Part shown: one piece after another, positions 10,441-11,563 of the stretch | How positions within the stretch are numbered: the first letter of the stretch is position 1 | Layout of the letters: each line of letters begins with the position of its first letter | Source of the DNA: Rothia aerolata | GTDB lineage: Bacteria; Actinomycetota; Actinomycetes; Actinomycetales; Micrococcaceae | NCBI RefSeq assembly: GCF_014635585.1 | Contig: NZ_BMDC01000001.1 | Location: 906,139-970,138, forward strand | DNA: 64,000 nt | Reading direction: 5' to 3' | Position numbers and translations under genes: made by a program | The notes under the pieces: generated by a model | Told to the model about the DNA's origin: nothing | The model's database searches: none | The model's input: the letters and a program-made list of their open reading frames with translations, nothing else

Positions 10441-10941
10441 CTAGGGCTTAGAGATACGAACCCGCTTGCGGAGATAGAACACGGTTGCCACCAGCAGGGC
10501 AAGTACAAGCAGCGGTGCCACCACCCAAGGCTGGCGTAACCAGGCCCACAGCACGGTCATACCGATGGTTCCGTAGATAGTTCCCCAAATCAGGGTGCCC
10601 ACTAGCATGGCGGGAATCCAACGGATCAGGGGCATGTGGGTAAAGCCGGTGGTGATAATAACGGCGGTTTGAAAGCCCACGGTCACAAAACACATGGGAA
10701 CAGCCAGAGCTCCCCAACGGTTCACAAAAGCCTGGGCCTTGAGGTAGAGCGGGGTCTTCATCACCGCCTCAATCTTGGCCACGTGGCGGGAGCCCGATGC
10801 CGCCAACCAACCCAGCATAAAAACGATAGAGGTTCGCACGATACCGACCATCCAGAAAAACAGGATCGCCCAGGCCCAGTGCAAACTCTCTATCCATTCA
10901 AACACACCCTCAGTGTATCGGTTCCCACCGGTGCCAGCCAC
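10441..10941 (-). CDS. DedA/VTT-like small membrane protein
   Basis: This 166-residue hydrophobic protein has about four spans: LHWAWAILFFWMVGIVRTSIVFMLGWL, ALAVPMCFVTVGFQTAVIITTGF, IPAMLVGTLIWGTIYGTIGMTV and VVAPLLVLALLVATVFYL. The RWGALAVPMCFVTVGFQT segment resembles the glycine/proline-containing re-entrant part of DedA family proteins, which act as membrane lipid or undecaprenyl-phosphate transporters, but the match is partial. The GTG at 10941 gives a polar 12-residue start; a second GTG at 10905 (MFEWIESLHW) is equally plausible. Upstream DNA contains tandem DtxR-like boxes. Confidence 0.65.
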   Translation of the reverse strand: MAGTGGNRYTEGVFEWIESLHWAWAILFFWMVGIVRTSIVFMLGWLAASGSRHVAKIEAVMKTPLYLKAQAFVNRWGALAVPMCFVTVGFQTAVIITTGFTHMPLIRWIPAMLVGTLIWGTIYGTIGMTVLWAWLRQPWVVAPLLVLALLVATVFYLRKRVRISKP

Positions 10942-11013
10942 CGCCTTTCGGCGAGTTACGCGCCACCCTCAGCCGCTAAAATCCGCGAAATCTCGGGGAT
11001 TTTCATTAAAAAC

Positions 11014-11054
11014 TTAGGTGAGCCTAAAAAATTTTTTAGGTTTTTCTAAATTAT
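11014..11054 (+). promoter_or_regulatory. Tandem DtxR/IdeR-like iron boxes
   Basis: Two inverted repeats lie 22 bp apart (two helical turns): TTAGGTGAGCCTAA at 11014-11027 and TTAGGTTTTTCTAA at 11036-11049. Over 19 positions the first matches about 14 and the second about 13 bases of the known DtxR/IdeR consensus. A perfect 18-bp palindrome (11023-11040) bridges them, and a third TTAGGTTA half-site starts at 11086. They could control the minus-strand DedA-like gene or a plus-strand RNA. Binding is inferred from the match only. Confidence 0.5.
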
Positions 11055-11057
11055 TTG

Positions 11058-11220
11058 CCGCAGGGCCTGGTCAAGCAACCCGCAATTAGGTTATATTTTT
11101 ATTACCAAATGGTTTGGGGCTTGTGGGAAGCTCCTCATCAAGCGGTATCGAAGACTTTTCTTCCTGTGTGTGATGCGGAAACCCCTAGTCAGTCTCCTCT
11201 GACTAGGGGTTTCTTCTGTT
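11058..11220 (+). ncRNA. Candidate iron-responsive small RNA
   Basis: Between the iron boxes and the terminator at 11179 lies ~150 bp without a credible reading frame. A promoter could be TGGTCA (11068-11073) with TATATT (11092-11097), spacing 18, or a -10 of TAAATT (11047-11052) overlapping the second iron box. A hairpin closed by GCTTG/CAAGC (around 11118-11142) lies in the middle, with a UCCUC stretch in the open part. The layout (DtxR operator, short non-coding unit, intrinsic terminator) is that expected for an iron-repressed regulatory RNA. No expression evidence is available, and start and function are guesses. Confidence 0.35.
11179..11220 (+). terminator. Strong intrinsic terminator without a protein gene upstream
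   Basis: Perfect 14-bp arms, AAACCCCTAGTCAG (11179-11192) and its complement (11199-11212), flank a 6-nt loop and are followed by TTCTTCTGTTT. The nearest plus-strand protein gene is more than 1.6 kb upstream. It may also act on the minus strand, downstream of the CYTH-CHAD gene. Confidence 0.8.
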
Positions 11221-11252
11221 TCAACGGTGTCGGGCCACCAGTAAAATGTCAC

Positions 11253-11563
11253 TGAAGCGGCGACTCAATGAAACAGAGTCAACCGCACGGGCTGCCATGA
11301 TCGCCGAGTGGCCATTTTTATCCCGAAAATCGGAGAAAAACAGTATAAAAATGGCCACTCGGAGAAGCTCGGTGGTGACAAGGTACAAGTTTCTTTTTGC
11401 CAAGCCGTCTAAAGTACAAGCAGGGTCCCTGAGTACAAGACAATACTTGTACTCAGGGACCCTGCTTGTACTGTTGCTCTCTCAGCGGGAATCTATGTGT
11501 ACCGAGAGCCTATTTCAGCGCAAAATCCAGGAATGCTCTATACCGCAGTTGCTGAAATTTTGG
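11253..11563 (+). repeat. Palindrome-rich dispersed repeat, copy 1
   Basis: This copy shares an identical 52-bp segment (11253-11304) with 30683-30734, in inverted orientation. Weaker similarity continues to about 11563, including GGTACAAGTTTCTT, GTGTACCG and TGGAATTTT-like ends. It contains an 18-bp perfect inverted repeat (11304-11321 with 11345-11362, core GAGTGGCCATTTTTA) and a 27-bp perfect inverted repeat with a 6-nt loop (11413-11439 with 11446-11472). GTAC recurs at the bases of these hairpins. No reading frame in it looks protein-coding. Confidence 0.85.

Follow-up and report, generated by a model that had tools for sequence, protein, structure and literature searches.

We have identified a locus in Rothia aerolata that probably encodes a trans-acting small RNA (sRNA) of the genus, placed under the control of IdeR and acting by base pairing to spare iron. 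The locus lies in the window, a stretch of 64,000 nucleotides (906139-970138) belonging to a 2.46-Mb genome (G000, C1). A candidate iron-responsive sRNA had been proposed here by a sequence-only reading, and comparative data on conservation, structure, the terminator and an IdeR-type regulon support that proposal. According to our model, iron-loaded IdeR on the upstream boxes would keep the RNA low, and under iron shortage IdeR would release its sites and the RNA would accumulate. The 3′ tail would pair with the leaders of leuC, sdhC and ilvD, and in some species with those of katA, a ferredoxin gene and nrdF; GUGAUGC would anchor it at a GCAUCAC-like site, and UUCCU would occlude the Shine-Dalgarno (SD) sequence. 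The loop of the first hairpin would pair with UCCCACA between the acnA SD and start codon. Iron-consuming enzymes would then be translated less, their messages being blocked, which would amount to iron saving under shortage.

Table 1. Features of the RNA locus and its surroundings, in window coordinates.
Feature	Position	Strand	Remarks
Divergent conserved membrane-protein gene	10441..10941	-	Adjoins the RNA in 29/31 loci
Iron box 1, TTAGGTGAGCCTAA, IdeR/DtxR-type	11014..11027		Exact TTAGGN4CCTAA, one of six genome-wide
Iron box 2, TTAGGTTTTTCTAA, IdeR/DtxR-type	11036..11049		One mismatch; centre-to-centre spacing to box 1 of 22 bp (two helical turns)
-35 element TGGTCA	11068..11073	+	Relatives mostly TAGCCA / TTGGCA (column counts, 31 loci)
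ATTAGG..ATTACC..AAT block, nearly invariant	11085..11110		Over the -10 element and start site
-10 element TATATT	11092..11097	+	Promoter-like pair with the -35 element, 18-nt spacer; column counts
Predicted small RNA, ~115 nt	11104..11218	+	5′ end 11101-11104, 3′ end at terminator; from conservation and fold
Hairpin 1, covarying stem	11104..11146	+	
Loop UGUGGGA of hairpin 1	11122..11128	+	Invariant in 20 aligned main-clade sequences; complementary to UCCCACA at the acnA start
Hairpin 2, GAAGA/UCUUC	11150..11163	+	Stem nearly constant, loop length variable
Predicted pairing tail UUUCUUCCUGUGUGUGAUGC	11157..11176	+	GUGAUGC (11170-11176) complementary to GCAUCAC in target leaders; UUCCU to SD
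Intrinsic terminator, 16-pair stem, then T/C-rich sequence	11177..11214	+	Position kept in relatives, sequence not

The two DtxR/IdeR-like inverted repeats, 22 bp apart, from which the earlier reading started are present as described, and so is a strong terminator stem on the same strand, although this stem has 16 pairs and not the 14 bp originally counted. Given the promoter pair at 11068-11097, the 5′ end of the RNA probably falls near 11101-11104 and not at 11058. The stretch also appears noncoding, as had been claimed: a 66-aa frame crosses it, but frames across the RNA are not conserved, and the ATG at 11109 reads TAG in most relatives. The block over the -10 element and start site, many columns of which are identical in 31/31 loci, is an imperfect inverted repeat, ATTNGGTWAT-N6-ATTACCNAAT, that occurs essentially once per genome. 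We rejected the possibility that this block forms an RNA hairpin, as its pairs are broken in some species without compensation. As a shared operator it was also discarded, because at up to one mismatch it was found only at the RNA, apart from one other site in a single genome (G002); its near-confinement to the RNA means that it defines no regulon. A separate palindrome, TGACA-N3-TGTCA, was seen near the RNA promoter in oral and second-clade Rothia (L003, L007, L013, L031), and a similar form occurs before sdhC (L181, L188, L189) and beside an iron box of this genome (L035 near 1480), possibly marking a second shared regulator.

Searching with the DNA of 10990-11240, we found the RNA gene in 31 of 35 Rothia genomes and in 31 of the 32 near-complete ones. 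A covariance model built from 20 of these 31 copies recovered the identical 31 genomes among 395 genomes of the family under strict filters, and under the same filters it gave no match in the other 31 genera represented there. Conservation in relatives, which had been put forward as a check on the candidate, includes a hairpin that covaries and a 3′ segment that hardly varies; the conserved parts of the RNA are the -10/start block, hairpin 1, the GAAGA/UCUUC hairpin and the 3′ segment UUCCUGUGUGUGAUGC. Across ten pairs and 20 sequences, 97% of cells were paired, and 17 cells had both sides changed, compared to a mean of 5.7 in shuffled alignments (0/500 shuffles reached the observed value) and to lower values in every slid version. 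The fold of 11104-11218 was likewise more stable than that of shuffled sequences (z -5.6, 0/200), with GUGAUGC of the window's RNA partly paired in the predicted ensemble. A second clade, which comprises koreensis, kristinae, halotolerans and others (L024-L031), has a hairpin 1 that is about 25-35 nt larger and RNA ends that are nearly unchanged. An independent structured noncoding RNA ending at an intrinsic terminator, as in the class of iron-sparing sRNAs, is what these data describe, and the gene is almost certainly a real, genus-wide sRNA gene of Rothia.

Rfam 15 gave no hit above the gathering threshold in the whole window, and sub-threshold matches at 10950-11250 obtained with lax thresholds, such as NsiR1 on the terminator, were rejected. 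Among named contigs carrying the conserved block, 20/23 are labelled Rothia or Kocuria, and the remaining three (one Lactobacillus and two Bacteroidia/Bacteroidales metagenome-assembled genomes) look like chance. The RNA was missing from four genomes (G020, G023, G031 and G032), for which a renewed search with laxer filters gave one match (E 3.4) that was judged to be noise on inspection. One of them, G020, retains GCATCACACA before sdhC and GCATCAC before leuC, and since the target sites are kept, an assembly gap is possible there.

Next to the promoter, a putative iron-repressor site is found in nearly all copies, again in keeping with iron-sparing sRNAs. The best box within 110 nt upstream of the RNA has at most one mismatch in 17/31 loci and at most two in 30/31, levels that dinucleotide shuffles reach in 0.8% and 8% of cases, respectively; a second box also occurs in R. 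nasimurium-like genomes. Compared by eye with TTAGGTTAGSCTAACCTAA, the consensus quoted in the available part of PMC1382209, box 1 agrees at about 14 of 19 bases and box 2 at about 13. Counting each place once, exact TTAGGN4CCTAA occurs at six sites in the 2.46-Mb genome; at up to one mismatch there are 20 places compared to 69 for a reversed control pattern, and raw counts alone therefore show no enrichment. The same box (zero or one mismatch) precedes an EfeU gene (L034, an NCBIfam equivalog), a gene for a siderophore-binding-type protein whose NCBIfam matches lie below their cut-offs (L033), three loci judged by eye to serve siderophore uptake (L039, L042, L048) and further genes with an unclear link to iron. 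The genome encodes two DtxR-family proteins, one of which matches the solved IdeR at E 5e-69 and DtxR at 2e-68. Taken together, the boxes, their neighbours and the IdeR homologue make it very likely that the RNA is under IdeR-type control. In one genome (G002, L011) the copy lacks an upstream iron box, its ATTACC block is altered and its tail contains GAAGC. Alongside this altered copy, the acnA leader of the same genome was observed to be without UCCCAC, possibly a joint decay.

The arrangement of the boxes bears on the sign of this control. The sequence-only reading saw here the layout of iron-repressed sRNAs; the locus departs somewhat from it, as the boxes lie upstream of the -35 element and not over the promoter. 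Measured from the ATTAGG block, 27/31 copies have the centre of their best box near -64, -54 or -32, and some have a second box near -42; with a start at 11104, these registers correspond to about -83, -73, -51 and -61, all upstream of -35. They are spaced by about one helical turn (resultant 0.93-0.95 at periods of 10.5-11, not corrected for kinship), the exceptions being three genomes whose best box lies outside the common registers (G008, G021, G010) and the boxless G002. According to the available text of PMC1382209, DtxR sites within promoters of Corynebacterium glutamicum were interpreted as repressing, and those located upstream of -35 accompanied activation. The RNA might therefore be activated by iron-loaded IdeR from boxes on one face of the helix, as in the DtxR-activated genes of C. 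glutamicum, and work in iron-rich cells. This we regard as unlikely, because iron enzymes would then be shut off when iron is plentiful, opposite to the known iron-sparing RNAs, and because an UP element might just as well be masked by box 2 and the A-tracts. With boxes upstream of -35, in an activation-type geometry, the sign of iron control is one that we infer, and repression by IdeR is preferred on account of the predicted targets. A broader proposal, which we put forward tentatively, is that a DtxR-family sensor acts from upstream sites held in helical phase with an sRNA promoter (about -51, -61, -73 and -83), the operator having moved between species by whole helical turns, so that the RNA would be either iron-activated or subject to an unusual upstream repression, with the invariant, once-per-genome inverted repeat that spans the -10 element and start site providing a further point of control.

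The predicted targets come from leaders collected across the genus (acnA 26, leuC 26, sdhC 30, ilvD 30), for which duplex energies were computed with each genome's own RNA. Starts of leuC were recognised in 26/30 loci, the start pattern missing four genomes (G006, G007, G010, G029), and for ilvD the automatic starts in G008 and G021 are probably wrong and were retained. Own-genome loci that had been chosen for complementarity, together with leuC-like leaks, were taken out of the 260 background leaders, which left 214. In the energy tests only leaders less than 70% alike were retained and genomes without the RNA were excluded; related genomes are not independent. Against a background tail energy of -11.8 on average (sd 2.9, 214 leaders), the 11 distinct leuC leaders had a mean of -19.6 (p 5e-8), and lower energies were also obtained for sdhC (13 distinct leaders, p 3e-6) and ilvD (14, p 0.002). 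Runs of at least seven perfect pairs were present in 17/24 leuC, 11/26 sdhC and 9/26 ilvD leaders, compared to 8/214 in the background. Complementarity to ribosome-binding regions of iron enzymes, a further property of the class, is thus above background, strongly for leuC, moderately for sdhC and ilvD and via the loop for acnA. The leuC leaders differ greatly among species, yet they match various parts of one tail: this genome and the nasimurium group have GCAUCAC, G011 has CACACACAGGA, G009 has CACACAGGAA, and G034 and G026 have CAUCACAC. A plain search of this genome for complementarity to CACACAGGAAGA returned mostly sites within genes and was set aside as uninformative.

A hairpin with an exposed pyrimidine stretch had been suggested as the seed. 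The stretch, UUUUCUUCC, is indeed nearly invariant and anti-SD, but the more specific pairing appears to be provided by GUGUGUGAUGC, which directly follows the stretch, and by the loop UGUGGGA. Alternatively, this could be a conserved sRNA that binds SD sequences in general through its pyrimidine stretch, leaving the complementarity to iron enzymes unspecific. UUCCU pairs with any AGGA, and when the anti-SD part was kept and the remainder of the tail shuffled, significance was lost for sdhC (118/1000, compared to 4/1000 with the whole tail shuffled) and ilvD (68/1000 compared to 6/1000), leaving both borderline; outgroup leuC leaders also score fairly low, the five from outside Rothia having a mean of -15.7, which is below background and intermediate, and weaker than in Rothia (p 0.009). 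Against this, leuC remained at 0/1000 in both shuffling schemes, including the one with the anti-SD part kept; GCATCAC of the leaders lies outside the SD; and the two controls, leuD with 10 leaders (p 0.08) and an iclR-type gene with five (p 0.29), were indistinguishable from background. We therefore consider purely general SD pairing improbable. What is new here is a 3′ segment with predicted complementarity to the ribosome-binding regions of leuC, sdhC and ilvD, together with a hairpin loop complementary to acnA, all of them encoding iron-sulphur enzymes.

For acnA, UCCCACA stands between the SD and the start codon in 14/26 Rothia leaders and in 0/214 background leaders, and the shorter UCCCA in 23/26 compared to 10/214. 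Among 15 leaders from outside Rothia, counted from a listing, TCCCACA was absent, GAGGAGUCC / GAGGAGTCC was present in ten and TCCCA in three, indicating an ancestral UCC part that was extended in Rothia. In the second clade both sides differ, with UCCCAAGC in acnA and UGGGAC in the RNA. By energy the loop pairing is weak (p 0.03), and an interaction of the tail with acnA was not supported (p 0.15). In six genomes (G005, G012, G013, G014, G027, G033) the only aconitase-family match was read as leuC, and the RNA is nonetheless present.

We also looked for the pattern GCATCAC..GGA..ATG at leader distances in five genomes, where it occurs at 73 places compared to 31 for a reversed control. Downstream frames were read for 50 of the 73, with iron-protein labels assigned after the fact, and the genuine-looking starts comprised leuC twice, ilvD, catalase, cytochrome bd subunit I, a 2Fe-2S ferredoxin and NrdF. 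The katA leader (catalase, G005) pairs with nearly the whole tail (-28.1), and the ferredoxin and nrdF leaders reach -21.5 and -21.2; cydA (cytochrome bd) matches the pattern with an ordinary energy (-12.7). The pattern also stands before non-iron genes, including dnaJ, sucB, a kinase-like gene and a zinc-finger anti-sigma-like gene.

The gene on the minus strand upstream, labelled DedA-like in the earlier reading, gave no significant Pfam or NCBIfam match. The boxes might serve this divergent membrane-protein gene only, with the RNA independent of iron; the gene is syntenic in 29/31 loci, and elsewhere in the genome an iron-box-like TTAGGTTTTCTTAA (L049 near 1505) precedes a gene whose product, judged by eye, looks like a true DedA. 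This explanation is very improbable, since the start of the membrane-protein gene lies anywhere from 47 to 335 bp away from the RNA reference point while the boxes hold their helical registers to the RNA promoter, and the minus-strand-only reading accordingly fits worse. On the other side, the locus is flanked by a CHAD/CYTH gene in 21/31 loci. A cis-acting element, a small peptide gene or chance AT-rich intergenic sequence, which the intergenic position and the 66-aa frame might suggest, is hardly credible in view of the covarying hairpin stem, a degree of conservation poorly compatible with chance, hairpin lengths that change out of frame, starts that are not conserved and a conserved downstream neighbour on the opposite strand, oriented towards the RNA terminator. 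Just 3′ of the terminator, 11246-11470 contains long inverted repeats, such as 20-pair arms at 11419-11466, and similar sequence in other regions of the genome (L037, L041) resembles a dispersed repeat.

Rothia is common in the human mouth flora. Iron-saving RNAs have evolved independently in several bacterial groups, and MrsI is, to our knowledge, the sole example known in actinobacteria. A literature search, with sources available in part, found no report of an iron-responsive sRNA in Rothia; Table 1 of a 2022 review (PMC9294342), in the text available, lists no sRNA for the iron sensor DtxR, and the putative non-coding RNAs of Rothia dentocariosa in the available part of a periodontitis metatranscriptome study adjoin other genes (PMC7160235). 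With about 30 natural RNA variants, fast-changing leaders that still pair and a movable operator, the system would permit the direct study of seed evolution. It would also allow DtxR-type control of an sRNA to be studied directly.

The targets of the proteobacterial RyhB and PrrF include aconitase and succinate dehydrogenase and overlap with those predicted for the Rothia RNA, which showed no similarity to either in the Rfam scans. Both are Fur- and Hfq-dependent (PMC9410917, available text). The same source describes FsrA of Bacillus subtilis and IsrR of staphylococci as iron-sparing sRNAs with C-rich segments, one of which FsrA uses to bind the SD, and names aconitase mRNA as a common target of the class. 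FsrA and IsrR are controlled by Fur; in the Rothia RNA, unlike these, the specific pairing part would be GUGAUGC beside the anti-SD stretch. MrsI (ncRv11846) of Mycobacterium tuberculosis is, in the accessible text of PMC8628891, a roughly 100-nt sRNA whose promoter carries an IdeR box; it is expressed on iron starvation, pairs with mRNAs of iron proteins (hypF, bfrA and fprA being named) and lies between blaI and rv1847. Compared by this description, the Rothia RNA resembles MrsI as an actinobacterial sRNA with an IdeR-type box and predicted iron-protein mRNA targets; it differs in its two separate pairing sites, its other neighbours and its lack of an Rfam match, the blaI / rv1847 neighbourhood being absent at the Rothia loci. 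On this reading the Rothia RNA would be analogous to RyhB, FsrA, IsrR and MrsI and is apparently of a separate lineage.
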